IMG/VR virus record: IMGVR_UViG_3300015371_000129
Location: 1 to 30,338 of that record
Reading direction: 5' to 3' (one strand)
Source: a virus
DNA length: 30,338 nucleotides
Made by a program: the position numbers and the translations under genes. Positions 2,211-26,822 of this stretch are shown here, one piece after another. The notes beneath the pieces were generated by a model. The model saw nothing but the letters and a program-made list of their open reading frames with translations, was not told the DNA's origin and made no database searches. Within the stretch, counting starts at the first letter, position 1; each line of letters begins with the position of its first letter.

Positions 2211-2600
2211 CTATGTACTCGGACTCGCTGAATGACTGGGCGAAGTTGATGCGCTTGGGCTAGCTGAGCGCGACGCTGACGAACTTGGACTTCCCGATGA
2301 GCTGGGTGACACTGAGCTACTCGGCGACGCGCTCTGACTCGCGGTGGTTAGAGTCGCTGATTGCCACAGCCCATCTGCGTCAACTGTGAAGAATCCACCC
2401 GCAGGATTCATCGCAATCGAGCCCTTGCCGTAAGCGGACAGCTTCCCATTCTGGATATTCGAGTCCAGTACGAGATCAGTTGTCGTACCGATGACGATGT
2501 ATTTGCCTGTGGAATCCTGGCCCAGTGCAAACGCCCCATAAGTGCGCCCGTTGTTCGAGTAAGTGCGCGAGAGGCGATTGTTGATCTTTTTGAAGTTCAT
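2211..2600 (-). CDS. Capsid-associated protein with C-terminal Ser/Pro repeat tail
   Basis: A 129-residue protein in two parts. Residues 1-87 look like a small beta domain (GRTYGAFALGQDSTGKYIVI; GKGSIAMNPAGGFFTV). Residues 88-129 are a low-complexity Ser/Pro/Ala tail of the type SASPSSSVSPSSSGSPSSS. The same kind of repeat ends the protein at 7427-7819 and makes up about 450 residues of the protein at 14778-17924, so it looks like a shared module. A GGGAGA ribosome site lies upstream. Located just after the major capsid region, it may decorate the head or neck; this is inferred. Confidence 0.6.
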   Translation of the reverse strand: MNFKKINNRLSRTYSNNGRTYGAFALGQDSTGKYIVIGTTTDLVLDSNIQNGKLSAYGKGSIAMNPAGGFFTVDADGLWQSATLTTASQSASPSSSVSPSSSGSPSSSASRSASPSASTSPSHSASPST

Positions 2601-4357: not shown

Positions 4358-5086
4358 CTATGCTGACTGTCTCTCGTTAAATGCTTTGAATGGATCTCCC
4401 ACGGGCTGTGACTGCTCGACGTAAGTTTTAGCGTAGTTCTTGGCCCATGCGAAAGGATCGGACGATGGCGGCTGCGTAGACATTTGCCCACCGGGAAGCT
4501 CGACTTGTTTAGTTTCAGCTTTCAACGATGGTAGGAAGGGGGTGATGTCGGGTGATGCTTCAACAAATTCCTTTGCAGGTTTCTCCGTGATCACGCCTTT
4601 ATCGTCCTTCACCTGTGCGAACCACTCGACTGTCTTCCCATCCTTACCGGACTTCGAGATGAACTCTGGCAAGTTCGGGAGTCGAATGAACGCTTCCTCG
4701 TTGAACCCTAGAGCCTTCGACGCCTGTCGCAGCGAGTCGTCACGTTTGCGCTTGTCGAGATCCGCCTTCATCGTGCCGTGCTCGGTTAGCTTCGTCGTCA
4801 CTTCATCCGGCGTGCCGTGCTCTTTGTACTTGCTCAGCAAGTCGGCGTCGGCTTTCGGGACCGCAACATGACCGCGCGGAACCGACTTCTCGGAAGCCGC
4901 CGCGATGTCTGCCTCCAACTCTCTTACCTTATTGGTCGCATTCGCCTTCTCGGTCAGGAGAGTCTTGTTATGCACGAGCACCGGATGATCGTCTGAAAGT
5001 TGCGGGACATACTTCCCGTCTGATTTGACGTAGTGCTCGCGGAGCGCCTCTGGAACTTCGTCAAGCGTGTTGTAGATTTTTAGCAT
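4358..5086 (-). CDS. Putative scaffold protein / minor capsid GP20-like
   Basis: A 242-residue, strongly charged protein. Residues about 45-70 form a likely coiled coil (LTEKANATNKVRELEADIAA), with a further helical Lys/Asp-rich stretch around 100-125. Its position just upstream of decoration and capsid genes and its composition fit an internal scaffold that directs capsid assembly. No protease motif is seen. It is the first gene after the terminator at 5116-5161. The start ATG is preceded by an AGAGGCC ribosome site. Confidence 0.65.
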   Translation of the reverse strand: MLKIYNTLDEVPEALREHYVKSDGKYVPQLSDDHPVLVHNKTLLTEKANATNKVRELEADIAAASEKSVPRGHVAVPKADADLLSKYKEHGTPDEVTTKLTEHGTMKADLDKRKRDDSLRQASKALGFNEEAFIRLPNLPEFISKSGKDGKTVEWFAQVKDDKGVITEKPAKEFVEASPDITPFLPSLKAETKQVELPGGQMSTQPPSSDPFAWAKNYAKTYVEQSQPVGDPFKAFNERQSA

Positions 5087-5507: not shown

Positions 5508-7214
5508 CTAATTCACTGAATTCGTAGCTGGTTTAGGTGTTTGCTGCCCTGGAGTTGGGATGACGGACTCAGGTAACTCAGCTTCCGGCAATGTCGCCTC
5601 CTTGTCGATCCGCGCCTCTTCCGCCGCGTTGTCCTCCACCCCACTCAACCCTCGCGCAGTCTCATCGCTAACGAGAGGTCGATTCTTCATTCCGCCCGGT
5701 TGGCGCATGAGGAGGGAAGTTTTGATCATCTCAGGATCAGGTGCTCCCGCGTCGATGAGGGTGTTGAAGTCGGCGCGGAGAGGGAGGTAGCGGGAGGATT
5801 GGCCGATGATGAACGCAGCAAGCCGGAGCGTCGCTTCCAGTTGCCAGCGTCCACAGGCGTCGAGTTCAGTTTTGGACTCCTTGAGCGAGCGCTCATACTC
5901 ACGCCTCGCAACTTCTCTCGCCCTCCCACTTGTATCTGCCTTGTCCACAATCAACACGTGACGCTGATGCGCCTGCGCGTAGATTGCAGCTTTCTCCTTG
6001 TCGATCGTCTTCTCAAACGTTTCCACTGGGACTGGATCGCTAATGTTAATTCCAGGATCAGTGTAATCCACCACAATCCCATCCTCATTATAGATCGGCA
6101 TCCCCATGAGAAAGTTGACTGCGCCTGCGCCGGTCTTGAACGTACCGGGGAATTTCTTTGCTCCGGGAGTAGTTGGAGCGGGAGGCGAATCCACTCGCGT
6201 CGTATCCTCAGTGATCGTCGGCTTCTCATTTGTCGCACCGGGCGGGACTGCGTTGGTGATCGTCTGCTGGCGATGACCGGCGAGATTGACATTGCGAATC
6301 ATCTGCGTGTGCGCGAGGTTGACGGCTTTCTGATTCGATTGGATCTGCTCGGTGATGAGTGCGTCACGCGTCATCTCGTAGATGAGCAACCTACCTCCAA
6401 GCGGATAAGGCGCATATTCAGTTGGCGCTCCTTCATCTCGCACGATCTTGCACACAGTCTCACCGGCATCGTTGAGGAAACTGAGTTCCGCGCACTGCGT
6501 CTTAACATCGCCATTTGCGTCCAGTTCGTCAAACAGGAAGATTCCCAGGTCGCGCATCGTCTCAGGATCGGTGTAGACCATGCCACGATCCGCGTAGACT
6601 GTCTCGAAGAAGATGAAGTCGAGGGCATCGAGGAGGGAGGAGGCGCGCGGGTTACGACCGTTGGTTAGGCGACCGCGTGGGAATACCAGTCGCCGCACAA
6701 CCACTCCCTCACAAACGAGAATCCGCGCAGCTTTCTGCAGGTCCTTGAGTGCCAATCGATCATTCCACCAGCGAGTGAGGGTGTTGCCGGTTTCCTTGGA
6801 GAATTCCTTGCGCGTTCCTTCAGGGTCATCCTCCTCAGCGACGAGGAATGACCACGACGGCTCACGTCCGAGGATGCCGCCCACATGAGTCTTCACTACT
6901 TCCTTAATTACATTCTCACTGACGAATGCTTTGCGAATCGCGTTCTTCATTGATTGCGCACCCGGCAGCGCATCGGGAGGAAGCTGGCCAATAAACCCAT
7001 GTCCCCATTGCCAGTGGTTTCCCTTGTAGTACTCAGTTGCGCGTATCGCAGTCTCAGTACGACGAGTGGCGGGGCGATGATCGTTCACTCCGACGAGATC
7101 TTCGAGGATCGAGGGTAGACGAAAGTCTCGTGTCCCCTCAGTGGGCAGTTGGATGCGCGCGCCGACTTGGTTCGCGGCGTCGTCGTAGTTCCATTGTGAG
7201 AAGGGTTTACTCAT
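5508..7214 (-). CDS. Portal protein
   Basis: A 568-residue protein of portal length, forming the dodecameric ring at the packaging vertex. Typical features are the N-terminal region with ATEYYKGNHWQWGHG, a stem region around residues 60-120 (ENVIKEVVKTHVGGILGREP), the extended central domain with VYTDPETMRDLG, and a helical C-terminal wing/crown (YAQAHQRHVLIVDKADTSGR; ARREYERSLKESKTELD). The last about 60 residues are Pro/Glu-rich and probably disordered. It overlaps the upstream small membrane gene by one base (TAATG). The family call is by overall pattern and synteny with terminase and capsid. Confidence 0.85.
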   Translation of the reverse strand: MSKPFSQWNYDDAANQVGARIQLPTEGTRDFRLPSILEDLVGVNDHRPATRRTETAIRATEYYKGNHWQWGHGFIGQLPPDALPGAQSMKNAIRKAFVSENVIKEVVKTHVGGILGREPSWSFLVAEEDDPEGTRKEFSKETGNTLTRWWNDRLALKDLQKAARILVCEGVVVRRLVFPRGRLTNGRNPRASSLLDALDFIFFETVYADRGMVYTDPETMRDLGIFLFDELDANGDVKTQCAELSFLNDAGETVCKIVRDEGAPTEYAPYPLGGRLLIYEMTRDALITEQIQSNQKAVNLAHTQMIRNVNLAGHRQQTITNAVPPGATNEKPTITEDTTRVDSPPAPTTPGAKKFPGTFKTGAGAVNFLMGMPIYNEDGIVVDYTDPGINISDPVPVETFEKTIDKEKAAIYAQAHQRHVLIVDKADTSGRAREVARREYERSLKESKTELDACGRWQLEATLRLAAFIIGQSSRYLPLRADFNTLIDAGAPDPEMIKTSLLMRQPGGMKNRPLVSDETARGLSGVEDNAAEEARIDKEATLPEAELPESVIPTPGQQTPKPATNSVN

Positions 7215-7426: not shown

Positions 7427-7819
7427 TCACACACTCGGACTCGCACTGGAACTCGGTGACATACTCGCACTCGGCACATCGACCACCCCGTAAAGATTCG
7501 TCACCTTGTACTTGTACTGCGCCGTCGCGGGTGTTGGGCCATTGTCGGACTCGTAGACATACTGGACCGTTACGGTGCGAATCTCCGACTTGCTGCGGGG
7601 CTTGACGATAAAGTTCTGGTCTGAAGTGATCCACAAGTCAACTGGAGTTGCGAGCGACGGGAAGCTCGTCACGCCGAGAATCGCCGTCTTGCTCGCTTCG
7701 TCGTCAATGCGATAAGTGGCTGAAGTCGGCACTACTGGATCGTTATTCTCGTCAACGAAGGATACGGCGAGTGGAAAGGCCGTTCGCTCGGAAACTTCAA
7801 AGAGGCATTCGTTAGCCAT
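7427..7819 (-). CDS. Ig-like structural protein with short Ser/Pro tail
   Basis: A 130-residue protein. Residues 1-115 look like an Ig-like beta-sandwich (FPLAVSFVDENNDPVVPTSA; IRTVTVQYVYESDNG; AQYKYKVTNLYGVV). Residues 117-130 are the Ser/Pro repeat (SASMSPSSSASPSV), as in the genes at 2211-2600 and 14778-17924. It sits just upstream of the portal transcript. A virion surface role is inferred from the shared repeat and neighbours. Confidence 0.6.
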   Translation of the reverse strand: MANECLFEVSERTAFPLAVSFVDENNDPVVPTSATYRIDDEASKTAILGVTSFPSLATPVDLWITSDQNFIVKPRSKSEIRTVTVQYVYESDNGPTPATAQYKYKVTNLYGVVDVPSASMSPSSSASPSV

Positions 7820-7970
7820 TCACTTGCTCTTTAGGTTTCTCGACGTGATCACAAGTCGCGCAATAGTAATAATCTATTTCGTCGGTATCGTCTACGCAAA
7901 CACCTGTCCAATCATGGTACTCACCGTTAAAACAAGTAGGCTCACCCCTGTCGTCGTCTTCGCTATCCAT
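7812..7970 (-). CDS. Small acidic CxxC protein
   Basis: A 52-residue frame (MDSEDDDRGEPTCFNGEYHD...) overlapping the end of the glycosyltransferase gene by 8 bases and the start of the Ig-like gene by 8 bases. It contains four Cys, including a CATC pair followed by DHVEKPKE, suggesting a small metal-binding fold. The dense Asp/Glu N-terminus is unusual. No family is recognised. Codon use and exact packing support coding, but no homologue was recalled. Confidence 0.6.
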   Translation of the reverse strand: MDSEDDDRGEPTCFNGEYHDWTGVCVDDTDEIDYYYCATCDHVEKPKEQVNG

Positions 7971-9777
7971 TCGCCAACTCCTCCAACCACTCCTGCACTC
8001 GCCCGTAGATTAGCGGCCAGCCGTCAATCTGTCCATTAGTTTCTGTCCAACCTTCCGCGTGTTTCTTATTCCTGAAGCTCTCGACAGAGAAGTGCGGCAC
8101 TGTAAGAGTCTGCCCATGTCCAGTGATGTCGATGTTAGAGAACTCCGACTCCCGGTTAGCGATCTTCTCATCCCCGAACTTGCCTCTCGTTCCCGGCTCG
8201 TAAGCCATGCGCTTCACGTCGAACACTCCGCCATTTGCTTCAATAAGTTCCACTCGACGCTTATAGTGAGCGAGGAGGAGGAGGCGATTTGCGCAGATGC
8301 CGGAGACTTGCTGGAGGTTAGCGGTACGAACTGCGTGACCATCCGAGTAGCGGATGCGCCAGACGTTGGTGTTGTAATACACAGTATCCTGACGAGGTGG
8401 AACGAAGTCGAAGTGCGATCGGTGATACATCACGTCACTCTCACATAGAAACACGTAATCCGCAGTCGATCTCTCCAGTCCAGCCAGAATCTGATAGTGC
8501 ATCGTCCCGCCTGACTTTTCCCGGTCGAGAGTGATGGTCCAATCACCGAAGTCGGTGCGTTGCAAGGAAACGCAACCGAGTTCATGGCCGTTTGTGGCTG
8601 ATTTGAGATTGTTGCGTGCAGCGAGTTCGAGAGTGGGATCGTGGGAGTTGCAGGTGTAATAAAGCGCACAACCGCGCTGCTTGCGTTGAATAGCGGGAGC
8701 GTAAGGAATCGACTTCCCTTGACGACGGTAGAATTCATCACCTGCTTGCGTAATCTGCTGCATCACTGGATTCTCTGGGCCGAAGTCAGGTACAGGTGCA
8801 AACTTCTCGATCAACCAACTCAACGGGTGAACCTGCTTCTCCCATTTATTCTGTAGGAATAATTCCTTCGACCTCGCCACTGCGCGTTCCTTGCGTCCTC
8901 CGTCCGGCCACGGGAAGCCAATACCACCAACGCGAAAGAAGTGAGCAAACCATGTATTCTGATTCACTTTTAGTTCGCCGCCCGATAACCAGCTCTTTAG
9001 TGAAACTTCCAGTCCCTGCTGCCCCCAGTTGCCCATGAGTTCATCACAGATATTCAACTCAAAGTACCGCTCCCGCCGCATGGCCCAACACGCACCCAGC
9101 AGGCACATCGTATCGTGAATGGGTTGCTGAGTTTCAGGACGAAAGAGAATGTTATGCTTGTTGCAGTAAACTTCGTCGGAGGCGTATGCACCCCAGTATT
9201 GAAATGTGAGAGTCGAGTCAAACCTCCACGAGTGCGTATAAGCTCGCCGTCGTCCCTCCTGTCCATCGCGAGGTTTCCAAATCTTCACTTGCTTGAGATA
9301 GCGCGAGTTGCACTTCTCGCAGCGCGCAGGTTTTGGAGACTGGTCCTTGGCCCATCCGCACTTCTTACATTTCCACTCGAACACTTGCAGATTGAATTGA
9401 CCAGGAACCACTGTCCAATGCGGCTCAAATGTCGCTAGCAGCTTCTCGTCAAAGTCGGAGTCCAATGCGCAATGTGCGTCCAGCTTCATCACGTACTCAC
9501 CAGTTGCAACTCGCGCTGCTTCATTAGTCGCCGCGCGTTGGCCAATCGACTTGCGATGCTGGATGACGGTAAGACGGGAGTTGACGGGGAGGGGGATGAG
9601 TGGCCATTGGGTGTCATAGCCGTCCAACACTGCAACTACTTCCGTCTTAACTGAAGTGTTGGCGAGGACGTTGGTGATCGTCTCGTGCAGGAGATCGATG
9701 TCGTAGTAGAACTCGTTGCGGGCGGGGATTAGGATCGAGAGCGCATAAGGGGATGGCATCGGGCGGGATAATAGCAC
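7963..9777 (-). CDS. Two-domain GT2-type glycosyltransferase with zinc-ribbon insert
   Basis: A 604-residue protein. The N-terminal GT-A fold starts ALSILIPARNE (residues 12-22), continues with VVAVLDGYD (47-55), and carries the metal/nucleotide-sugar motif as KLDAHCALD (98-106), the DxD equivalent. An insert at 137-156 has two Cys pairs (C137/C140, C153/C156), a zinc ribbon unusual inside a GT2 domain. A second half (residues about 370-590) resembles another sugar-transferase domain with FLCESDVMYH (443-452). It starts with GTG at 9777; a Met at residue 7 is the alternative. Related phage enzymes decorate virions or modified DNA. The acceptor is unknown. Confidence 0.8.
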   Translation of the reverse strand: MLLSRPMPSPYALSILIPARNEFYYDIDLLHETITNVLANTSVKTEVVAVLDGYDTQWPLIPLPVNSRLTVIQHRKSIGQRAATNEAARVATGEYVMKLDAHCALDSDFDEKLLATFEPHWTVVPGQFNLQVFEWKCKKCGWAKDQSPKPARCEKCNSRYLKQVKIWKPRDGQEGRRRAYTHSWRFDSTLTFQYWGAYASDEVYCNKHNILFRPETQQPIHDTMCLLGACWAMRRERYFELNICDELMGNWGQQGLEVSLKSWLSGGELKVNQNTWFAHFFRVGGIGFPWPDGGRKERAVARSKELFLQNKWEKQVHPLSWLIEKFAPVPDFGPENPVMQQITQAGDEFYRRQGKSIPYAPAIQRKQRGCALYYTCNSHDPTLELAARNNLKSATNGHELGCVSLQRTDFGDWTITLDREKSGGTMHYQILAGLERSTADYVFLCESDVMYHRSHFDFVPPRQDTVYYNTNVWRIRYSDGHAVRTANLQQVSGICANRLLLLAHYKRRVELIEANGGVFDVKRMAYEPGTRGKFGDEKIANRESEFSNIDITGHGQTLTVPHFSVESFRNKKHAEGWTETNGQIDGWPLIYGRVQEWLEELANG

Positions 9778-9780
9778 AAT

Positions 9781-9972
9781 CTAATCACTGGTAAACCCTG
9801 CTTCTTTATCTTCCTCCGCGGCAGACGGATCGATAAACACTCTGCCATTCTTCTCCAGCACGCCAAGGATCGGGTAGCTGGAAGTCGGAGAAGAAACGAC
9901 TACCACATCACAGTCGAGTGAGTGCTGCTGAAGCTCGACAATCAAGTCTCTTACGGTTCTGATGTGGGTCAT
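9781..9972 (-). CDS. Small hypothetical protein (TVRDLI family)
   Basis: A 63-residue protein (MTHIRTVRDLIVELQQHSLD...) coupled to its upstream neighbour by an ATGA overlap. It has the pattern of a common phage protein: a helix T-V-x-x-L-I-x-x-L-Q, then a VVVV strand, then YPILGVLEKNGRVFI. No biochemical role is known for that family. It ends four bases before the GTG of the glycosyltransferase gene. Confidence 0.7.
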   Translation of the reverse strand: MTHIRTVRDLIVELQQHSLDCDVVVVSSPTSSYPILGVLEKNGRVFIDPSAAEEDKEAGFTSD

Positions 9973-10157
9973 TTCTTCAACAACCCCGCAGAGTAATTCG
10001 CCAGCTTCTCAAATTCCCTCTGCTCAACGATGAGAGTTGCCAGTGTCTTGTCCGGCCCACGAAGGAATACCTTCACTTGATACGTCCCGTCATCCTGCTT
10101 GTTCAGTTGCAACTCACGACGGCCTTGAGATTTGATGATGTAGTCCTTTGTTGGCAT
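9969..10157 (-). CDS. Small hypothetical protein
   Basis: A 62-residue, basic protein with a beta-hairpin-like middle (RRELQLNKQDDGTYQVKVFL) and a C-terminal helix (REFEKLANYSAGLLKK). It starts at ATG 10157 and ends in an ATGA overlap with the next gene. No Cys, membrane segment or signal is present. Not recognised; part of the accessory run between the two glycosyltransferase genes. Confidence 0.65.
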   Translation of the reverse strand: MPTKDYIIKSQGRRELQLNKQDDGTYQVKVFLRGPDKTLATLIVEQREFEKLANYSAGLLKK

Positions 10158-10163
10158 AGCTAA

Positions 10164-10391
10164 TTACTCCTTGTCGAAGATGTCGGCCAACTTCTTAGCA
10201 CTTGGATCGGAGTGAGTCAAGAGAAACGCACGGAGTAACTGGCAAGCTTCAAACGTGAAGGATAATACCGGACGCTCGTGTTCCACGACGTAGGTATCGC
10301 ATAACCAACGGTTCGGAGATGGTTGACCCAGATCGTGATCGTTGTAGCCGATGAATCTTGCCTGACAGTTAGGACACTGCTGCGCGCTCAC
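10164..10391 (-). CDS. Small CxxC-containing hypothetical protein
   Basis: A 75-residue protein with a GTG start preceded by AGGTGG. It has an N-terminal Cys pair (QQCPNCQARFIGYND), further single Cys at WLCDTY and EACQLL, and a C-terminal helix. The CPNC looks like half of a zinc ribbon. Not recognised. It lies 6 bases upstream of the next small gene in the same operon. Confidence 0.65.
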   Translation of the reverse strand: MSAQQCPNCQARFIGYNDHDLGQPSPNRWLCDTYVVEHERPVLSFTFEACQLLRAFLLTHSDPSAKKLADIFDKE

Positions 10392-10406
10392 TCTACCACC
10401 TTTGAA

Positions 10407-10607
10407 TCACCACTGTTTTGACCTGTCTTCGGATTCAACAATGGAGCGAGTCTCCGAATCGACCACTTGCCACCAGTCGTAATCGTCAAGTCCTATCACC
10501 GCCTGAATCGCCGACTCAACGGAAACAAAGTCCATCTTATAGTCCGACCAGCCGCCACTGGGGTAGTAACGCTCTCCGGCAAATAACAGGTATCGACCTT
10601 TGGTCAT
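10407..10607 (-). CDS. Small phage protein of the YLLFAG/YYPSGG type
   Basis: A 66-residue protein beginning MTKGRYLLFAGERYYPSGGW, followed by a helix (SVESAIQAVIGLDDYDWWQ) and VVDSETRSIV. I recognise this as a widespread small phage family of unknown function with YLLFAG, YYPxGG and D-W-x-Q-I/V-V-D elements. It is coupled to the DUF2829-like gene by an ATGA overlap, so the two are co-translated. Confidence 0.75.
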   Translation of the reverse strand: MTKGRYLLFAGERYYPSGGWSDYKMDFVSVESAIQAVIGLDDYDWWQVVDSETRSIVESEDRSKQW

Positions 10608-10813
10608 TCAACGATCTCCCAATCATCCGCAAAGTAATCACTCTCCGTAATCACCCACGGGTGCCACTTGCCGTCGTCTGGTCCAAGGGATGAGAAGCCC
10701 TTGATGCAGAGCCGTCCCTCTTCCAGTCCGACGAAGACCTTCGAGGACCAGAGGCGACGACGAGCGCGGTGATTATCGGAGAAGATGGCGTGGAGGGTTT
10801 CGGTGAAGGTCAC
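10604..10813 (-). CDS. DUF2829 / Tad2-like protein (candidate anti-Thoeris)
   Basis: A 69-residue protein with the layout of DUF2829: an N-terminal helix (TFTETLHAIF), a basic turn ending in R-R-x-L-W (RARRRLWSS), a strand pair, and the C-terminal signature WVITESDYFADDWEIVE, close to the family's S-x-x-D-L-x-A-x-D-W-E-V. The Tad2 proteins in this family bind and sequester the cyclic ADP-ribose-type signal of the Thoeris defence. Many DUF2829 members are untested, so anti-defence activity is inferred. It starts with GTG, overlapping the upstream TAG (TAGTG). Confidence 0.6.
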   Translation of the reverse strand: MTFTETLHAIFSDNHRARRRLWSSKVFVGLEEGRLCIKGFSSLGPDDGKWHPWVITESDYFADDWEIVE

Positions 10814-11001
10814 TATTTATTCCTTTCCTTGTAGAATTTACTTCTCTTGTACAACCAGCCGCCGAAGGTATTAATCAGCCAGTAGGAAAACCTGCTTGGC
10901 TTCAGCGTAAGAAATGGCGCAGGAGACGATTCACTCCAGTAAATCACAATTTCCCCACCACTGCCGTCTTCCGAATAGCCACGAGCACCCATTGTAATCA
11001 T
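10813..11001 (-). CDS. Small hypothetical protein
   Basis: A 62-residue protein from ATG 11001, which overlaps the TGA of the upstream glycosyltransferase gene (ATGA). A GTG at 11013 would add four residues but lies further inside that gene. It has an aromatic/basic C-terminal half (SRFSYWLINTFGGWLYKRSK). It is not clearly membrane-spanning, although amphipathic membrane binding is possible. No family is recognised. Confidence 0.6.
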   Translation of the reverse strand: MITMGARGYSEDGSGGEIVIYWSESSPAPFLTLKPSRFSYWLINTFGGWLYKRSKFYKERNK

Positions 11002-13061
11002 GGCTTCACCCACATGAAATCCACCGACTTGTGTCCACTGAACAAGTACCAGACCGGAATCCGATGCGCGTTCGTGTAAGCCTGCACAGCTTCAACTACG
11101 CCACCGCCAATCCAGCGCTTCTGGTCGAGGGCGTAGTAGTCGTCGCCGGAAACGATCCCGCCTGAGCGTACTCGCTTGGACCACTCGATGATGTCCTGAA
11201 CGCACTCGTCGAATAAGTGATTTGCGTCCACGTAACAGAAGTCCAGCGAGTTGTAGAGGATACCGTCAACAACATCCAGACTGTAACCTTGTCGAATGTC
11301 AACGTGCTCGTATTCCTTTGTCTTCCTCACTGTCTCGTTGTACGCGAACAGGTGCTTGTCGTTGGGCTTGTTCTGCGGATTACCCGCATAACCACTCCAG
11401 ATATCGACTAGCAGCAACTCGCACTCAGGATTGGCCTTGAGCAGCACCTCGGAATACTTTCCTTCAGCCACCCCGATCTCCGCGCCGCGCTTGAATCCGA
11501 GTTCTGCAAACAGTTGCGCCAGATCGTTCCGATGAAAATCGCGGAGTTCGATCGGCATTGGCCCACGGAGACGTTGTGGAGAGATGGAGAAGTGTCGGAT
11601 GAGGTAGTCGTTGAGGGCGGTGGCGTTAGTCGTCTTAATACTCCCGTCAGGTTGTACCAGCGAGTGCCCAAATTGTTTTAAGCGTGGATCGTCATCATCG
11701 ACAACGGGCACGGTGAAGTCGATAACAGACGTTTCCGGCTCATTCTTTGGCTTCCAGATCGGCGTCTGCTCCCCGCTCGGTCGCACCTGCCCGATGATGA
11801 GCCAGTCTTTCTCCTCTCGTTGAATAGTAACAGGCTCCCCGCCGTCGTAGAAATATGTCACCCAAAGCGTCTTCTTCTTCCCGCGATGAGGGTTTTCGCC
11901 CGGACAGAGAGTTGAGTTGTTAACGACAATATCGAGTGAGTCATTGTTTAGGTAGGCCAAATTCTGAAGCCGTGCCGTAACATCAAGGTTTGCGCCGGGC
12001 CCATGCCCCGCATCGATACCATAGGTAGCCGCGATAATCACCAAGCCTTTAGTGAGATTGCCTTGTCCATCGTGAACCATTGTTCGATCTTCTCCGCTCG
12101 CTACGTCAACGCCAATCTCATAGCCCTGTATCACGCACGGCTTCCTCTCCGCATACAGCACCTCCTCCCAGTTCTCCGGCCAGCTCGGCACCGGCCAGAA
12201 GTGGTCGATCAACCATTTGAAGGGGAGGGTTTGTTTGGACCATGCGTCGTTCCAGATCCACTCCTTCGTGAAAGTTGCGCCTTGCGTGAGCCATGACTCG
12301 GGAAGGTGGTAGCCGCGCCCGCCTTTGCCGTCTTCACCTTTGTATTCCCTCCCCTTGTGGAGGTGGGCATAGAACGTCTTCTTATTGATCTTCACCTGTC
12401 CACCGCTCAGCCAGCACTTGAGTCCGAGTTCCTGAAACTCATTCCAAAATGGCCCATAACTCGCTTCGTCCATAAGTTCAAGTTCTTGAAAGTAGCTCGC
12501 GGCCATGAACCAGCACGATCCTTGCGAGGACATTTCGTCATCCAGATCGTATTCAGGCTTATCCAGTCGCTCCTTAATGCGCTCGTACCACACCTTCCCG
12601 TTGAGTCCTTTACCGCCGAAGTCCTGTGGATCGTCAGGGAATGAAAGATAGTGGTAGTCAACATCAGGCTTGCCGACATCCTGGACGGTCCAGGTTTCTG
12701 CGTTGAGACGTTTGCGACGTGGGACGACGATCCAGTTGGATTCCATGTCGTCTTGGAGCTTTGTGTCATAGCCTTCATCGAGCATACAGTGAGCATCGAG
12801 TTTGAGCAGGTACTTTGCTCCACGAGAGATTGCAGAACCTGCGGCTGAGTTGATTGCTGCGCGTAGCCCGCGTGGTTCGCCGTGATGAATCGTGTGCAGG
12901 TTGGGGAACTGGTCAGTTAGCTCTTTCCAGCCGGGATGCCAGTAACCGTCGAGACATACTACAACCTCTACCTCGCCTGCCGCGTTCTCGAAACAAGATC
13001 GAATTGTTTGAGGCAAGTATCTTTCATTTCGACTGGGAATTAATACTGAAACTTTCGCCAC
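10998..13061 (-). CDS. Glycosyltransferase-methyltransferase fusion protein
   Basis: A 687-residue protein with three parts. Residues 1-320 form a GT2 domain (AKVSVLIPSRNERYL at 2-16; KLDAHCMLD at 87-95 as the DxD-type motif; LSGGQVKINKKTFYAH). Residues about 335-430 form a beta domain (DVTARLQNLAYLNNDSLDI; KKTLWVTYFYDGGEPV) that recalls the DUF3395-like domain; this is tentative. Residues about 515-687 form a class I SAM methyltransferase (AEIGVAEGKYSE at 527, LLLVDIW, DFCYVDANH, GGIVSGDDYY). It probably transfers a sugar and methylates it or a linked group. The GTG start overlaps the HNH gene's TAG. Confidence 0.8.
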   Translation of the reverse strand: MAKVSVLIPSRNERYLPQTIRSCFENAAGEVEVVVCLDGYWHPGWKELTDQFPNLHTIHHGEPRGLRAAINSAAGSAISRGAKYLLKLDAHCMLDEGYDTKLQDDMESNWIVVPRRKRLNAETWTVQDVGKPDVDYHYLSFPDDPQDFGGKGLNGKVWYERIKERLDKPEYDLDDEMSSQGSCWFMAASYFQELELMDEASYGPFWNEFQELGLKCWLSGGQVKINKKTFYAHLHKGREYKGEDGKGGRGYHLPESWLTQGATFTKEWIWNDAWSKQTLPFKWLIDHFWPVPSWPENWEEVLYAERKPCVIQGYEIGVDVASGEDRTMVHDGQGNLTKGLVIIAATYGIDAGHGPGANLDVTARLQNLAYLNNDSLDIVVNNSTLCPGENPHRGKKKTLWVTYFYDGGEPVTIQREEKDWLIIGQVRPSGEQTPIWKPKNEPETSVIDFTVPVVDDDDPRLKQFGHSLVQPDGSIKTTNATALNDYLIRHFSISPQRLRGPMPIELRDFHRNDLAQLFAELGFKRGAEIGVAEGKYSEVLLKANPECELLLVDIWSGYAGNPQNKPNDKHLFAYNETVRKTKEYEHVDIRQGYSLDVVDGILYNSLDFCYVDANHLFDECVQDIIEWSKRVRSGGIVSGDDYYALDQKRWIGGGVVEAVQAYTNAHRIPVWYLFSGHKSVDFMWVKP

Positions 13062-13573
13062 TAGGTATACGCCTCCCTGCCAGCCTTATAACGCTGCCTG
13101 CCGTAATCGGATGCACATTGTTTACAGTAACGACCACCATCACAAGCTCGGTTTCCCTTCAACGGCAACAGATGCCCACGAATACAGAACACCTTTCTCG
13201 CATTAACGGCAGTAGGAGAAGTCAAGCTCCGCTTAGTATTGTCGGCATGAGTTGAAAGTTTTAGGTGGGCGGGGTTACAGCAACCCGCATTACTACAAGT
13301 GAAATGATCCAGTTCCGGCTTTCCTTTGCCGTGGCCGCGTAGTAATTTTGTTTGCGTGGTCCACGCATATAAAACGCGGTGGATTAACTCTTTGCGCCCT
13401 CTGTATCTCCACCGACCATATCCGCGAACTTTCTCCGCAAGCCATTCCCAGCAACCCGTTTCCCGGTTTACCGCAATCTTTGAAAAGATTCTCGATAGTT
13501 CATCTAGCGATAAATGCTCTACCGTCAGGTACTTTTCGTTACGGGAAGGGATTAAGATTGCAAGTTTTGACAT
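13061..13573 (-). CDS. HNH endonuclease with a glycosyltransferase N-terminal remnant
   Basis: A 170-residue protein. Residues 21-113 form an HNH nuclease: VNRETGCWEW (36-44), GYGRWRYRGRKELIHRVLYA, ELDH (87-90), CCNPAHL (98-104) and N112. The C-terminal Cys/His positions (C130, H134, C150, C153) suggest a zinc finger. Such proteins are usually homing endonucleases of phages. Residues 2-16 (SKLAILIPSRNEKYL) are a GT2 N-terminus nearly matching the downstream glycosyltransferase (AKVSVLIPSRNERYL). The ATG at 13573 overlaps the upstream TAA (TAATG), which fixes the start. Confidence 0.8.
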   Translation of the reverse strand: MSKLAILIPSRNEKYLTVEHLSLDELSRIFSKIAVNRETGCWEWLAEKVRGYGRWRYRGRKELIHRVLYAWTTQTKLLRGHGKGKPELDHFTCSNAGCCNPAHLKLSTHADNTKRSLTSPTAVNARKVFCIRGHLLPLKGNRACDGGRYCKQCASDYGRQRYKAGREAYT

Positions 13574-13749
13574 TATTTTACCAATGGCCTGATTAACCAA
13601 ATGCGAACCTGGTACACCAAACAGGCGGCCACTGATACGCCCGCAACCGCTCGCCAGTAACCTGAAAGAGCTAGGAGCATTCCAGCAATTGACAGCGCTG
13701 TTGTAAAAAATGACAAAGAATCAAACACTATTAACCTATTGGCACTCAT
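13573..13749 (-). CDS. Small membrane protein, two transmembrane segments
   Basis: A 58-residue frame with hydrophobic stretches at about residues 12-30 (SLSFFTTALSIAGMLLALSG) and 32-53 (RAVAGVSVAACLVYQVRIWL), ending IRPLVK. It starts in an ATGA overlap with the upstream gene and its TAA overlaps the HNH start. The size and two helices would suit a holin, but no lysis enzyme is nearby and no family is recognised. Confidence 0.65.
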   Translation of the reverse strand: MSANRLIVFDSLSFFTTALSIAGMLLALSGYWRAVAGVSVAACLVYQVRIWLIRPLVK

Positions 13750-14572: not shown

Positions 14573-14781
14573 TTCCCCCGCTCCTTCCGAGTACCGTTCG
14601 TCTTGGCTGGTTTCAGCAACACCGCTCGCAGACCTTTGTTATAGCTACCAAACTCCATCTTGAGCAGCCGGAGCGCGGTCCAGACTTCAGTGTCGAAACG
14701 AACCCCACGCGCGATGTATTCAAGTTTCTTAGACTTTGCCGCCACACGCGTTACTATATCGCACGGTACACGGTGCGTCAA
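14569..14781 (-). CDS. Small ribbon-helix-helix-like protein
   Basis: A 70-residue basic protein. The middle (VRFDTEVWTALRLLKMEFGS) followed by YNKGLRAVLLK fits a strand plus two helices as in Arc/MetJ-type DNA-binding proteins. It probably starts with TTG at 14781, overlapping the TGA of the large tail-like gene (TTGA); a GTG 12 codons in is the alternative. A regulatory role is possible, but many such folds have other roles. Confidence 0.5.
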   Translation of the reverse strand: MTHRVPCDIVTRVAAKSKKLEYIARGVRFDTEVWTALRLLKMEFGSYNKGLRAVLLKPAKTNGTRKERGK

Positions 14782-17700
14782 GGGGTAAATTGCGCCTGCG
14801 CCACTCGGGCTGCAAATACCACTCCAGGTTTGCGTGGTACGAACGCAACTGATGACTGACGCGGAGTAAAGTGGACATGGACAACTCGCGGCAGTGGACC
14901 ACTGGGGCTGGCTGAGTGGGAGGGACTTAGACTGGGACTGATGCTTATTGAGATAGAGGCCGAGGAAGAGGTTGAAGGAGATAAGCTGGGTGATTCACTT
15001 AGGGACTCTGATGCACTGGGCGAGATACTGGGCGATTCACTGGTGCTAGGTGAGGTGGACGCTGAAGCTGAAGCTGACGGGGAGACTGACAACGACTCGC
15101 TCCCACTTGGACTCTGCGAGAGCGACTCACTCTCACTCGGGCTAATCGAAGCCGATACCGAACTCGAAGGTGAGGCACTGGAACTGGGGGATAGGGAAGG
15201 GGACTCACTGGCAGATGGGGACTGAGATGGAGAAGGCGAGATTGATGGCGAGGACGACGAACTCGGTGATCGGCTCGAACTGGGACTGAGACTAGGAGAG
15301 GGTGATGAGGAAGGGGAGAGGGATAGCGATGGGCTAAGGGAAGCTGAAGCGCTCGAACTGGGAGAGATGCTGGGACTCGGGCTGAGAGATGGACTGGGGC
15401 TTGACGAGGGCGATAGCGATGACGAAGGCGAAGGGCTGCGACTAACACTGGAGCTGGGACTGATGCTTGCACTTGGAGACACACTCGGGGAAGCGCTGGA
15501 CGAAGGCGACTGGGAAGCACTTGGACTGAGACTCAGACTGATACTGCTCGAAGGTGAGAGCGATGGCGACGGAGAGACACTTGCACTTGCACTCGCACTC
15601 GGAGATACAGAGGAACTCGGACTAACTGAAGCCGATTCACTCGCGCTTGGAGAACTGATCGAGTCGCGGAATGCCACTACGACGCCGCACTCGTAAAGGA
15701 AGAAGTCAACACTTGTGCCGCCGCTGACCATGCCGATCCCGGCTGCATTCGATGGGTAACTGCTTTGAGTGACAGGCTTGAGCACCTTCCCCGGTGTCGT
15801 AGTAACCGCGGAACCTGTTATTGAGTAATCAGTGCCGTCTATAGTGATTGCAGGAGTGCCAGCACCGCCGAAGGGAGTGGACTTCTTAGTCCATATCCAA
15901 CCCATGAAGCCGACAATTGCCTTGCTGCTGATGTCTACGTCACCAGCGCCTGCGGATTCGAGAGTGTAGTTTTGTCGCGCCTGAGTTGAGCCTGCCTGCT
16001 GGCGATAGTCGGACTCGTCGAGAGGGCGTTCGTTGACTGCGCCTGTCCCACCCGTAGTGTCGAATTGATCGTCGTTAACCGTGGCTGGAAACTTTGCTGT
16101 CGTGCGAATATCGCCAGTGTCGCTGAGATCCGAACCATCGTCCAGGTAAACATGCGCGAAGTGGAATGGTCCGCCATCAGCCCCGGACGGACCAACAAAG
16201 CGGAATTGCCCTGCGGTAATCCCGTTCGATCCTTGACCCGTGATTGAAATGTCCAGCGTGCTATTGACGTAAGCATTTGCGTCGAGGTTATCGACAGTGC
16301 CGTTGTCGTTGAAGCAGAGAGTGATGTGATACCAAGTTCCTGTGTTCAGTACCTGAGAGCCGGGAGTTTCCGCTGCTCCTGTGACCGGATGCCAGTGAAG
16401 GAGTCCGTCTGGGCCAATTCTGAGATCAATGATTGGATCGGGACTGCCTGAGGCGTCTTCAGTAATAAGGAAAGGTAAATTAGTGCTAGGTAGCGCTTCA
16501 GTGTAGAAGTAAAAACTAATCCTGCCGATGCCGGGGCTGGTGGTCCTAACCCAGTCGGTGCCAGTCTCCAGCTTTATTGATGAGTAGCCGTCGGGCGGCT
16601 TAATCGTGGTATCTATCGCCGGAGCGCCATTGATCTCCTTATAGAGATGAGTTCCGTCCGTCGATGCGCCACCCGCTTCAAGAAAGAGGATGGTTGGCGG
16701 TGGCGGAGGCGGAGAAGGACTGGCGCTACTACTGGGGCTGAGACTTGCGCTTGGAGAAAGCGAGGCGCTGGGAGATTCTGAGGCCGACTCGCTACTTGAT
16801 GGGCTAAGACTCGCACTGGGAGAGATCGAGGGTGATGCGCTACTGCTCGAACTCTCACTGCTGCTGGGACTGACAGAGGGCGACTCGCTGCTGGAAGGGC
16901 TCGCACTGGAACTGGGACTCAGTGATGGGCTGACACTGGAACTCGGACTCGCTGACGATGAGGGAGAAACGCTTGGGCTCACACTACCTGAAGGCGAGAG
17001 GGACGAACTCGGAGAGAGAGAAGGTGAAGTGGAACTGCTGGGGCTAACGCTCGGGCTTGGTGAGACACTCGGGCTAACACTACTACTAGGACTGACGGAT
17101 GGGCTGGGCGAGATCGAGGGCGAGACGGAACTTGATGGTGACGTACTGCTCGAAGGGGAGAGACTGGGGCTGTTCGAGCTTGACGGGGAAACCGAAGGTG
17201 AAGGACTAACTGATGCGCTCGCACTGGAGGACGGACTGACGCTGGCTGATGGGCTGACGGATGCTGACGGGCTGAGACTCGGAGAAGGACTGACACTCGC
17301 ACTGGCGCTCGTCGTGTTGAAAGTGAGCGTATCAGCGAGGATAAGATTCGGATTGTTTGCAGTCGTGACGCCGTCGGTGATCGCAAGGTCGGTAGCTGAG
17401 TCGGAACCAATGCTAATAGATCCACCATGCGTGTTAGTCCCACCGGGATCGCCGTTGAGCCCGACTTCGATGACAATACGATCTCCTGCAACGGTTGTGT
17501 AATTCCCCGCTACGCTCGCCACGGTCGCGCTTCTGGTCGTGAGGGTCGCCGATGTTTGCTCCGTCCCGTCCTGACGTTTGGCGATGAGTGTTTTCTGTAA
17601 CGTCGAGCCGTTGAAGATGTAGACCGCCCACGTGAAGAAGAGATTGTTCGCCGCCGCCGTCTCCGCCTCACGTATCACGATGGAGATGTTCTGTCCGCCA

Positions 17701-17924
17701 GTGATCGTCTGTCCGGCATCGAGTGGGTGCGATATGAACTGCGCGAGGATGATGTCGAGTTGAGTGGAGATGGCGGAGGTAGAACTCCGCGTCGTCATGG
17801 TGGAGGAGAGTTTCGTCGTACCGGCAGCGAAGCGCGCGAACTGCGTCTGGTCCGTCCAGCCCGCGTTGGGAGTGGGAGTGATCGGACTAAACGCAGTCGA
17901 TTCGAGGTAGAGCTTGGTGGCCAG
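14778..17924 (-). CDS. Giant tail/surface protein: beta domain, Ser/Pro linkers, LamG-like lectin domain
   Basis: If translation starts at CTG 17924 the product has 1048 residues. The CTG is the first usable codon after a perfect AGGAGG (17939-17934), and the added 42 residues (ATKLYLESTAFSP...) match the N-terminus of a common phage tail-protein family; the first ATG is at 17798. Parts: residues 1-205 beta-rich; 206-407 Ser/Pro hexapeptide repeats; about 410-755 a concanavalin A/LamG-like lectin domain (ISFYFYTEALPST; TWYHITLCFNDNGTVDN; FHFAHVYLDDGS); about 755-1005 a second Ser/Pro block; then a C-terminal V-x-F-x-P-R beta repeat. Probably a surface-exposed adhesin or fibre. It follows the large terminase. 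Confidence 0.75.
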   Translation of the reverse strand: MATKLYLESTAFSPITPTPNAGWTDQTQFARFAAGTTKLSSTMTTRSSTSAISTQLDIILAQFISHPLDAGQTITGGQNISIVIREAETAAANNLFFTWAVYIFNGSTLQKTLIAKRQDGTEQTSATLTTRSATVASVAGNYTTVAGDRIVIEVGLNGDPGGTNTHGGSISIGSDSATDLAITDGVTTANNPNLILADTLTFNTTSASASVSPSPSLSPSASVSPSASVSPSSSASASVSPSPSVSPSSSNSPSLSPSSSTSPSSSVSPSISPSPSVSPSSSVSPSVSPSPSVSPSSSTSPSLSPSSSLSPSGSVSPSVSPSSSASPSSSVSPSLSPSSSASPSSSESPSVSPSSSESSSSSASPSISPSASLSPSSSESASESPSASLSPSASLSPSSSASPSPPPPPPTILFLEAGGASTDGTHLYKEINGAPAIDTTIKPPDGYSSIKLETGTDWVRTTSPGIGRISFYFYTEALPSTNLPFLITEDASGSPDPIIDLRIGPDGLLHWHPVTGAAETPGSQVLNTGTWYHITLCFNDNGTVDNLDANAYVNSTLDISITGQGSNGITAGQFRFVGPSGADGGPFHFAHVYLDDGSDLSDTGDIRTTAKFPATVNDDQFDTTGGTGAVNERPLDESDYRQQAGSTQARQNYTLESAGAGDVDISSKAIVGFMGWIWTKKSTPFGGAGTPAITIDGTDYSITGSAVTTTPGKVLKPVTQSSYPSNAAGIGMVSGGTSVDFFLYECGVVVAFRDSISSPSASESASVSPSSSVSPSASASASVSPSPSLSPSSSISLSLSPSASQSPSSSASPSVSPSASISPSSSVSRSPSPSSSLSPSSSPSPSLSPSPSISPSSSASASLSPSLSLSPSSSPSPSLSPSSSRSPSSSSSPSISPSPSQSPSASESPSLSPSSSASPSSSVSASISPSESESLSQSPSGSESLSVSPSASASASTSPSTSESPSISPSASESLSESPSLSPSTSSSASISISISPSLSPSHSASPSGPLPRVVHVHFTPRQSSVAFVPRKPGVVFAARVAQAQFTP
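14905..15660 (-). repeat. Ser/Pro hexapeptide repeat block 2
   Basis: About 250 codons encode imperfect S-x-S-P-S-S/A units. Codons vary between copies (for example Ser as AGT, AGC, TCN), so the repeat is kept at protein level more than at DNA level. The last third is enriched in Glu and Leu (SESESLSQSPS). Confidence 0.9.
16713..17310 (-). repeat. Ser/Pro hexapeptide repeat block 1
   Basis: About 200 codons of S-x-S-P-S-S/A units, ending in a PPPPPP run next to the lectin-like domain. Probably an extended, disordered linker; the density of Ser and Pro resembles O-glycosylated mucin-type tracts. Confidence 0.9.
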
Positions 17925-18077: not shown

Positions 18078-19679
18078 TTAGACGTATTCCATGTAGGAGT
18101 AGGACTGGACTTCCACTTGCTCAACTTGTTTCTTTTTCGGGAAGAATGCTTGCACGGTCGCATCGCCATCGTCAGTTGAGCGGCCTAGTCTGCTCGGTTT
18201 ACGCAAATCGTCCTTCGACTCAATACGCAGCTTTCCCGATCCCGTCATCCGTCCACGCTTCGGCGCAGAGAGGTCCCCGGTGAGTACGTCGCAGGGAGGG
18301 AGAGCGACTTGCGAATCGTAAGCTGGATCTAGTAACTCGCGCATATACCACCATGCCGCTGAGCGCTTATCCGCAAATTCCAACTCCTTCGATCTATCCC
18401 GCATCCCGGTACTCTCACCGGCGTTGAAGGGCTGAGCACGGGAGCCGAATCTCTCTCGGAGTTGATCGTATGGCCCAGCGCCAATCCCGATCACGTCCAC
18501 CATTGCGTAAGCTGCGGTCCAGCGTTCCAGGAGATTGGAAGCATAGCCGACGATGGGTTGAGTGTCTGCGATCGCGTAACGGTCGAGTTGAGTGAGAGTC
18601 ATCCCTTGACGACGACCAATGACAGTCTTATCACCCTTATCACTGCGCGCGATGTCGATGCCGAGCGCGTCCACCGGATAAGCCTCGTTGCGCCACCTCC
18701 ACCTCGGCCAAGTCCCCTGTTTCGCGCCTTCGATCCAGTTCCAGTTCTTATCGAGCAGCTCAATCCGCTCCTCCCAGCGCCGATTCGCAGCCTCGATCCA
18801 GGCAAGCGGGATAACGCAATCCTCACTCGACTCGCAGAACTCTCCCAGCACACGATTCTTGAACACAGCGGAATTCTCGCCCCACTGGCGCGCGAGCTGG
18901 TCTACTTTCTCTCGCGTGATCCTACCCGCTGCGATCATCTCCTCCACCGTGACGTGTCGCGTCCACCAGTCCTCATAGCCCGGTTTGCGCGTGTGGATGT
19001 CGTAAAAGCGGCCTGAGGGTTCACCGGGGGTGGAGATCGCAAGCGCATAAGTATCGCCGGTCATCAGTGCGCCTTCTGCAGCGTCCCAGCGACCGGGTGC
19101 GATAGCTTTAGCCTCGTCAAACACATAGAGGAGATGATCCGCATGCGCTCCTTCAGTCATCTCGTCGTCCGATGCCGCCATTGCAAACCCTCGTCCAGTG
19201 GAGAGTTTGAGCAGCATGGTTTGCAACTCGTATTGAGTGAAGGCGGGACGGCCAACTCGATCCCACTTGATTCGCATGGCCCACTTGTGCACCTCGGGCC
19301 AGAAGAATTCGCTGAGCTGACGCCAAGCAGAGGCTGTCGTCGGAATCTTCCAGTCCTCGCCGTCGAAGGTGGTGGAGAAGCAGAGCAGGGAGATTGCAGC
19401 TAGGCACGTTTTCCCCAAACCATGTGGGCCACGCACAGCAACTCGATGCTCGCGAGGGAGCGCATCCCAGATCTCATCCTGATATTGAGTTGGTCCCTGC
19501 CCCTCCGGCCAAGTGACGCAATCGTGCGCAAAGGCGACGTAGTTGTTGCGATAGGTGCGCTTGAACGTCTCACCCGGTTTGTCCAGTGAGCGCAGGTATT
19601 CGAGGAACTGGACGCGATATTCGATGGGCCAGGTCAGAGGGTCGGGACCGAGTTGGGGCTGGCGGCGGGGACGGGGCAT
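18078..19679 (-). CDS. terL: Terminase large subunit
   Basis: A 533-residue packaging motor. The N-terminal ATPase has a Walker A-like RGPHGLGKT (83-91) and a Walker B LLYVFDEA (183-190), with the coupling segment ALAISTPGEPSGRFY. The C-terminal RNase H-like nuclease shows the acidic residues D341 in ALGIDIARSDKGD, D394 in MVDVIGIGAG, and the STDDGDATVQAF region near 501-511. It cleaves concatemeric DNA and drives it through the portal. It is the first gene of a minus-strand run and is divergent from the small plus-strand cluster at 19711. The small subunit is at 21017-21532, separated by that cluster. Confidence 0.93.
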   Translation of the reverse strand: MPRPRRQPQLGPDPLTWPIEYRVQFLEYLRSLDKPGETFKRTYRNNYVAFAHDCVTWPEGQGPTQYQDEIWDALPREHRVAVRGPHGLGKTCLAAISLLCFSTTFDGEDWKIPTTASAWRQLSEFFWPEVHKWAMRIKWDRVGRPAFTQYELQTMLLKLSTGRGFAMAASDDEMTEGAHADHLLYVFDEAKAIAPGRWDAAEGALMTGDTYALAISTPGEPSGRFYDIHTRKPGYEDWWTRHVTVEEMIAAGRITREKVDQLARQWGENSAVFKNRVLGEFCESSEDCVIPLAWIEAANRRWEERIELLDKNWNWIEGAKQGTWPRWRWRNEAYPVDALGIDIARSDKGDKTVIGRRQGMTLTQLDRYAIADTQPIVGYASNLLERWTAAYAMVDVIGIGAGPYDQLRERFGSRAQPFNAGESTGMRDRSKELEFADKRSAAWWYMRELLDPAYDSQVALPPCDVLTGDLSAPKRGRMTGSGKLRIESKDDLRKPSRLGRSTDDGDATVQAFFPKKKQVEQVEVQSYSYMEYV

Positions 19680-23277: not shown

Positions 23278-23796
23278 ATGAGCAGCAAAGTTGATCGTTA
23301 CAGAGAGTACGCGGCTAATGCACGACGAAGATCGTCAGAGGCTTACGATGCTAGCCACGCAGCCGTTAGCGGTATTCCCTTCGGTCAGCCGATCTTGGTC
23401 GGACATCACTCAGAGAGTCGCCATCGCCGGGCGTTAAAGTTACAGGACTCCCGTATGCAAAAGTCTATTGAGGAAGATCAGAAAGCGGCGTACTGGAAGA
23501 GTCGCGCTGATCGAGTCGAGTACAGGGAACGCGGGCTTGAGCAGGCGAAGGAACTATCAGATGTAGTCGAGGGACATTTTGAGCAAGGTGAGGAAGTAAT
23601 CGCACGGTTCACAAATTGTAGTCGCTTCCATGAATTTCGCGGTGTGATCGTCGGACGAACAAAGAACGACTGGAAAGTTAAGGCGTTAGTTTCGCCCTAT
23701 GCAGACCAAGGCGAGCAACCGGGGCGAGTATTCTATATCCCTACCGTTTCCAGTCGGAAGCACTCACGGAATAATTGCATAGTGAAGGCTAGCTGA
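23278..23796 (+). CDS. DUF3560 domain protein
   Basis: A 172-residue protein with the hallmark IPFGQPILVGHHSESRHR (residues 33-50) of DUF3560, preceded by YREYAANARRRSSEAYDASH and followed by the KSIEEDQKAAYWKSRADRVE helix. The family is common on phages and plasmids, often next to anti-restriction or single-strand DNA genes, with no settled biochemical role. The C-terminal part (RGVIVGRTKNDWKVKALVSP) forms a small beta domain. A GGAGGGAGG site precedes the ATG. Confidence 0.85.
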   Translation: MSSKVDRYREYAANARRRSSEAYDASHAAVSGIPFGQPILVGHHSESRHRRALKLQDSRMQKSIEEDQKAAYWKSRADRVEYRERGLEQAKELSDVVEGHFEQGEEVIARFTNCSRFHEFRGVIVGRTKNDWKVKALVSPYADQGEQPGRVFYIPTVSSRKHSRNNCIVKAS

Positions 23797-26397: not shown

Positions 26398-26818
26398 CTG
26401 CGTTCGACAGCGGGCTAAGTTCGGCGCACGAAGCATGGCGGGAGACATTTGCTCTTGTGGTGCTGATATACCCGCGCCGGATGGTGAAGAGCGCGATTAC
26501 GACGCTCAACCACTCACCTCCGCAGAGATTCAGGAAACGATCCGCTACATCCATCGCTGGCAGGTGTTCGAGCACTATCCCAAACGGATACTCGATGCAA
26601 ATGGCGTCATCGTTATTGCAGAGGCTCAGACTGAGGAGCGGGCGGCGCAAATTGTCGTTGAGCATAACGCAGTACCGCAACTGGTAGCGGCGTTGACAAA
26701 CATGCTCGACAAGTTCTATCCGCACCGGTGCAAGTTCCACGGCCCATCGATCTGTGACAAGTGTGAAGCACTGCGACAGGCGACGACCACTCTCACCACC
26801 CTGCGCAAAGGAGCGTGA
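26375..26818 (+). CDS. Hypothetical protein with N- and C-terminal Cys motifs
   Basis: A 147-residue protein. N-terminal CSCGADIPAPDGEERDYDAQ gives a CxC; C-terminal HRCKFHGPSICDKCEAL gives a Cys/His cluster that could hold zinc. The middle is helical (TEERAAQIVVEHNAVPQLVA). AGGGGA precedes the ATG, which overlaps the previous gene by 23 bases. Similar small phage proteins with ICDKC ends are common; function unknown. Confidence 0.65.
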   Translation: MMTTHTDDCVRQRAKFGARSMAGDICSCGADIPAPDGEERDYDAQPLTSAEIQETIRYIHRWQVFEHYPKRILDANGVIVIAEAQTEERAAQIVVEHNAVPQLVAALTNMLDKFYPHRCKFHGPSICDKCEALRQATTTLTTLRKGA

Positions 26819-26822
26819 TCGA

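Follow-up and report, generated by a model that had tools for sequence, protein, structure and literature searches.

Serine-rich repeat glycoproteins of Gram-positive bacteria (GspB/PsrP type) are built of Ser-x dipeptide repeats that are modified in the cytoplasm by enzymes encoded beside the substrate, with a dedicated transporter, the accessory Sec system, nearby. To our knowledge, Pro does not recur regularly in these repeats, and the enzymes that initiate their glycosylation are not GT27-like. In the Pgf system of Streptococcus mutans, as far as it is described, a GT-A enzyme encoded beside a surface protein modifies the Thr-rich repeat region of that protein, which raises its protease resistance (PMC5856776). 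In the polypeptide GalNAc-transferase of T. gondii, Asp276, His278 and His414 coordinate Mn2+ (PMC11074326). Virion O-glycosylation itself is already known in mycobacteriophages, where O-glycans are described at the C-termini of capsid and tail-tube proteins, shielding the particle from antibodies (Freeman et al. 2023, cited in PMC12619734, PMC11652166). In the open-licence PMC literature we found no account of a mucin-type system in phages or bacteria, nor of a Patescibacteria glycoprotein, which is weak evidence of absence.

The window analysed here is a virus record of 30,338 nucleotides (IMG/VR IMGVR_UViG_3300015371_000129), with PHROGs matches for the terminase, the major head protein and the scaffold. 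Its gene set, Ser/Pro tracts together with GT27-like enzymes, points to phage particles, and possibly tiny bacteria, covered by a mucin-like coat of sugar. As in the GspB/PsrP type, the repeats are strict Ser-x and the enzymes lie beside the substrate, and in bacteria tatC is found nearby where the accessory Sec occurs in that type; unlike it, the tracts have regular Pro, and no signal peptide is evident in the bacterial tract proteins. The adjacency of a GT-A enzyme gene and a repeat-protein gene resembles Pgf, although PgfS is membrane-bound and has membrane partners, and no methyltransferase fusion is described for that system (PMC5856776). As in the mycobacteriophages, glycosyltransferases are phage-encoded, and both the major tail protein and capsid-side proteins end in short C-terminal tails, here putative acceptors. 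By comparison with the mycobacteriophage system as described in the citing papers, the putative acceptors here include long S-x-S-P tracts on several virion proteins, the presumed initiating enzyme is GT27-like, and the cassette is also present in bacterial chromosomes. The new elements are the GT27-like enzyme, a putative tract substrate distributed across many virion proteins, a cassette shared with Patescibacteria, and a link backed by statistics. The features of the window are as follows.

2211..2600 (-): small protein encoded next to the major head protein, decoration-like by position; its C-terminus is an S-x-S-P tail of 42-44 aa
2872..3921 (-): major head protein (phrog_29, E=7e-12)
4358..5086 (-): scaffold-like protein (phrog_206, E=0.009)
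5508..7214 (-): putative portal, by position only, with no profile match
7427..7819 (-): small protein encoded next to the putative portal gene; C-terminal tail of exactly 14 aa, SASMSPSSSASPSV
7963..9777 (-): GT_A, polypeptide-GalNAc-transferase-like GT-A domain plus a second domain
10998..13061 (-): GT_B, DxH glycosyltransferase domain (aa 1-330), middle domain and C-terminal Methyltransf_24
13061..13600 (-): HNH endonuclease (P0010), whose initial residues duplicate those of GT_B
14778..17924 (-): tract protein, 1048 aa by translation; N-terminal domain (aa 1-205), tract 1, ConA/laminin-G-like central domain, tract 2, conserved 39-aa C-terminus
14898..15653 (-): tract 2, 252 aa, S-x-S-P pattern, alternate residues all Ser
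16710..17309 (-): tract 1, 200 aa, S-x-S-P pattern, alternate residues all Ser
18078..19679 (-): terminase large subunit (phrog_5909, E=1e-5; phrog_5902, E=1e-27)

Strict S-x-S-P tracts make up about 450 residues of the 14778-17924 protein. The first-pass annotation had described them as two linkers at 14905-15660 and 16713-17310; these coordinates agree with ours to within a few bases, but tract 2 is followed by only 39 residues and is near-terminal, not a linker. Translation starts either at a TTG at 17924 (1048 aa) or at an ATG (1006 aa), and we favour the longer form because a bacterial homologue has an ATG at the equivalent position. Residues 1-202 share 39% identity with a Woesebacteria tract protein (E=1e-26), and the central domain matches Laminin_G_3 at E=0.0016, under the curated cut-off. 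Within the tracts, x is mostly P (36%), followed by A, S and V, and Pro recurs chiefly every 4 or 6 residues. All six Ser codons are in use (AGC 48, AGT 75, TCA 36, TCC 32, TCG 42, TCT 23), as are all four Pro codons, and AGY makes up a larger share of the tracts' Ser codons (123/256) than of those in other genes (30/151). Tandem Repeats Finder reports a single 46-bp array in the gene; given this near absence of tandem arrays and the codon usage, the tracts are no recent DNA repeat. No comparable run occurs in the other frames of the window, which hold one weak 12-aa S-x run lacking Pro. The protein thus resembles mucin-like glycoproteins in having a long Ser/Pro-rich tract under selection for Ser, with disorder predicted from composition, and its gene position suggests a place in the virion.

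The C-terminal tails noticed at first pass on the two small proteins are also genuine. Ser and Pro are invariant across nine relatives in the tail of the 2211-2600 protein, and in that of the 7427-7819 protein the 14-aa length as well as every alternate Ser and Pro is invariant across nine relatives. Tract proteins recur at orthologous places in close relatives (21-66 kb records; head protein identity 72-97%): every one of these encodes several, and the fuller records about six. In one relative a tract-tailed protein is the major tail protein with an Ig-like domain (phrog_807, E=2.7e-47), and others are tail proteins of phrog_1101 and phrog_1082; the major head protein has no tract. The last 14 residues of three families, i.e. 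both small proteins and the major tail protein, have alternate Ser and fixed Pro in 8-9 phages, while the x positions vary. TCN and AGY codons are mixed in most Ser columns of these families, and no single synonymous step connects the two codon sets. Invariance of Ser and Pro despite such switches shows that selection acts on the protein sequence, as had been proposed from codon differences between units. Homology places only the relatives' major tail protein and tail proteins in the virion, and the two small window proteins would be located in the virion according to their gene position.

The two GT2-type enzymes of the earlier reading, one of them fused to a methyltransferase, are borne out by Pfam (PF00535, E=4e-16 and 7e-12; Methyltransf_24 on the second, E=5.5e-11). 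The GT-A domain of GT_A (aa ~1-340) contains a four-Cys insert. In an hmmsearch against the PDB, a 33-sequence GT_A profile matched GalNAc-T1 (E=3.7e-15, in two stretches covering both domain halves), GalNAc-T2 (E=1.5e-12) and the T. gondii GalNAc-T. A single GT_A sequence matched solved GalNAc-transferases at E=5e-6. For other GT2 structures the match was confined to the first 100 residues, at E=1e-6. Judged by sequence, the closest solved relatives of GT_A are the polypeptide GalNAc-transferases (CAZy GT27), which in animals initiate the O-glycosylation of mucins. Residues D100 and H102 (DAH), W251, G252, and H279, F281 and R282 (HxFR) are invariant (33/33) and align with GT27, those of DxH and HxFR with their counterparts in GalNAc-transferases; in the T. 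gondii enzyme the equivalent DxH and His are the Mn2+ ligands. GT_A resembles GT27 in its sequence profile, its DxH with a third metal-ligand His, the Arg of HxFR and the Ser/Pro-rich nature of its putative acceptors. It differs in that the Glu of WGGEN is replaced (W and G are kept, Glu aligns with Gln or another residue), that Pfam finds PF00535 only (P0005) and no ricin-type (ricin-B) lectin domain, and that it has the four-Cys insert, a different second domain and a predicted cytoplasmic location instead of the Golgi. Since the lectin domain and the WGGEN Glu are lacking, we call the enzyme GT27-like and not GT27. Its second domain (aa ~341-604), which several relatives encode as a gene of its own, is probably a second glycosyltransferase; no solved relative of this domain was found. 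GT_B is a paralogue of GT_A, and GT_B sequences form one fully supported side of the tree. Residues D89, H91 and H233/H235 are invariant, the middle domain has a weak DnaJ-like_C11_C match, and its match to solved GT27 (profile A8; GalNAc-T1, E=3e-7) is weaker than that of GT_A and no better than to other GT2 structures. Neither enzyme has a hydrophobic membrane segment. AlphaFold models from alignments of 7-8 sequences were poor (pLDDT 44.5 for GT_A and 52.5 for GT_B).

A link between tracts and enzymes had been proposed at first pass; it would fail if tracts were equally common without the glycosyltransferases, and it survived tests in both directions. In the capsid clade, tracts occur in all nine GT_A-positive records (the window and G001-G008) and in 0/13 GT_A-negative records, six of which exceed 50 kb (Fisher p=2e-6, a value that ignores shared descent inside the clade). 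The 13 comprise G009-G011 and ten records found by head-protein alignment, and in records longer than the locus examined, absence was read from DNA-pattern matches that were scattered and unclustered. In the forward test, which covers 50 viral loci encoding GT_A relatives, a strict tract is present in the DNA examined for 40 of the 46 newly taken up, a few of which sit in records also counted in the capsid-clade test. Among the exceptions, three are shorter than 10 kb; G136 carries a tract in another part of its record; G137, nearly a duplicate of G136, is a fragment of 23 kb; and G135 is explained neither by fragment length nor by a tract outside the locus. The reverse test took up 120 loci by an enzyme-blind DNA pattern for S-x-S-P-S-x-S-P-S-x-S-P-S; short pure SPSPSP runs, a different, simple-repeat class, were counted apart. 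Tracts of at least 100 aa occur in 11 of these loci, and nine of the 11 records encode GT_A (two of the nine also belong to the forward set), the other two being 10-13 kb fragments. GT_A is encoded in 2/109 of the remaining records (9/11 vs 2/109, p=3e-10), one with a long tract cut off in the piece examined (G083) and one with a weak partial match, and in 0/33 loci without a tract. In the DNA examined, about six viral and about 13 genome-contig GT_A loci have no strict tract, and many, not all, of them are cut by contig ends.

A dozen phages with GT_A represent at least four major-head-protein families, at least three portal families and several terminases. Viral and bacterial sequences are mixed in the GT_A tree, with about eight label changes, at least 5-6 of which are forced by well supported branches. 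The linkage therefore reflects more than common descent. No match to GT_A was found in 50,697 cultured-phage records or 72,556 plasmids. A genome scan gave 41 GT_A loci, nearly all in Patescibacteria assemblies and one on a 917-kb chromosome, with a strict tract gene in 28 of the 41, mostly just downstream. The phage frame of the first-pass annotation was thus correct in that phages have the cassette but too narrow, as Patescibacteria chromosomes carry it too. The bacterial clusters encode homologues of both GT_A domains, of the GT_B glycosyltransferase domain and of its methyltransferase, as well as sugar-nucleotide enzymes; elsewhere in such clusters the GT_A domains and the GT_B methyltransferase family occur as separate genes. 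Five TatC matches were found on seven large bacterial contigs and no tatC in the phage records. Export by Tat is only a guess, because the bacterial tract proteins have no obvious signal peptide. These observations suggest that the bacterial loci serve the cell surface, their product being synthesised in the cytoplasm and then exported, and that phages use the system where they can do without export. Many other glycan and polysaccharide genes lie near the bacterial loci, and the glycosyltransferases there could build another glycan. Prophage origin was considered but found no support: searched against PHROGs, 91 ORFs from seven large contigs gave no terminase, portal or major head protein; the families matched were those of sugar genes, apart from a few isolated, weak matches to virion or tail-spike proteins. 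Some contigs from metagenome-assembled genomes may be phage or misbinned. We see about an even chance that this is a prokaryotic mucin-type O-glycosylation system of GT27-like enzymes and S-x-S-P proteins. It would reside on Patescibacteria chromosomes within a cluster of glycan genes, in many cases next to tatC, and would have passed repeatedly between these bacteria and unrelated uncultured phages, which coat their virions with it, perhaps copying the surface of a Patescibacteria host.

For the window itself, we consider it probable that it holds a mucin-type protein O-glycosylation cassette yielding a coated virion. What follows on the chemistry, the sugar, the sequence of steps and the use of the coat is our proposal. 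In the cytoplasm of the infected cell, the DxH domain of GT_A would add the first sugar, probably a HexNAc from the host UDP-HexNAc pool, to the regularly spaced Ser of the tracts. Chain extension would then fall to the second domain of GT_A and to GT_B, whose methyltransferase domain would cap the glycan by O-methylation. Glycosylation would precede virion assembly, with the long tract protein and several structural proteins, the latter on their short C-terminal tails, as acceptors, so that the finished particle would bear stiff, hydrated, sugar-coated bristles serving as a shield or in surface adhesion. If true, two-way genomic linkage would have revealed an enzyme-substrate pair for mucin-type glycosylation outside eukaryotes, and S-P tracts of environmental viruses that resemble mere low-complexity sequence would gain a testable function. 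It would also hint at how some phages armour or disguise themselves, point to Patescibacteria as possible hosts and offer a possible source of soluble bacterial-style enzymes for making mucin-like glycoproteins.

The main rival to glycosylation holds that the tracts carry no modification and act as disordered bristles or linkers in the manner of Pro/Ala/Ser polymers, and that the glycosyltransferases make another surface glycan or modify the host envelope, merely sharing an accessory region with them. Ser/Pro/Ala-rich chains are hydrophilic and disordered even without sugar, and the wealth of other polysaccharide genes in the bacterial loci fits this explanation. Linkers, however, need no invariant alternate Ser, whereas these tracts retain Ser across TCN/AGY switches even as the x residues change; moreover, the linkage holds across phages with unrelated capsids, and the closest solved relatives of GT_A modify Ser/Thr of proteins. 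We therefore consider unmodified bristles unlikely. Much less probable still are recombination-prone modules that swap fibre domains and are kept for DNA reasons: tract-protein length does vary strongly among close relatives (1006 vs 1421 aa, with N-termini 96% identical), and globular domains are common to phage and bacterial tract proteins, but codons are scrambled between units and copies, the exact 14-aa tails are conserved in place and the enzymes are left unexplained. That the enzymes glycosylate modified bases of phage DNA, the tracts being unrelated, is hardly credible: virus-encoded glycosyltransferases that hypermodify DNA are on record (cited in PMC12619734), but the hydroxymethyl-pyrimidine synthase expected of such a phage, a thymidylate-synthase-family enzyme, was found in 0/10 records with positive controls, and the same glycosyltransferases adjoin tract genes in bacterial chromosomes.

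The HNH protein P0010 was also searched as a source of control loci, and nothing was found; its gene is a probable mobile insertion and lies outside the proposed mechanism.

GT_B is the glycosyltransferase gene with a C-terminal methyltransferase domain, and its paralogue GT_A encodes a polypeptide-GalNAc-transferase-like enzyme. In relatives, GT_B is interrupted by one HNH gene (L033:4207-4653) and GT_A by another (L046:6976-7377), and the glycosyltransferase genes are therefore recurrent targets of HNH insertion. The features of the window considered here are as follows:

13061-13600, HNH endonuclease ORF, whose first residues duplicate the N-terminus of GT_B (MSKLAILIPSRNEKYL...)
9270-9430, four-Cys insert in the glycosyltransferase domain of GT_A (aa ~135-160), rubredoxin-like or zinc-ribbon
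23278-23796, plus-strand arm, DUF3560 protein (PF12083, E=1.4e-28)
26754-27314, protein with a DNA methyltransferase PHROG match (phrog_11619, E=2e-34)

At least three Cys of the GT_A insert are invariant across the 33 aligned sequences. The middle domain of GT_B (11532-12071) gave a weak DnaJ-like_C11_C match, under the cut-off (PF11875, E=3e-5). The 1.2 kb separating GT_A from GT_B (9777-10998) holds short ORFs only; small conserved genes are likely there, since a portion of ~200 bp retains 75-81% identity in three viral relatives (G001, G002 and G007).

S-x-S-P tract genes lie near tatC in Patescibacteria clusters (L227, L237, L256, L258, L261 and L263), yet in the tract proteins neither a twin-arginine signal peptide nor one of any other type is evident. 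In the 1048-residue tract protein of the phage, the 39-aa C-terminus beyond the second tract (14778-14897; PRVVHVHFTPRQSSVAFVPRKPGVVF...) is 64-84% conserved among relatives and is possibly an attachment or sorting segment.
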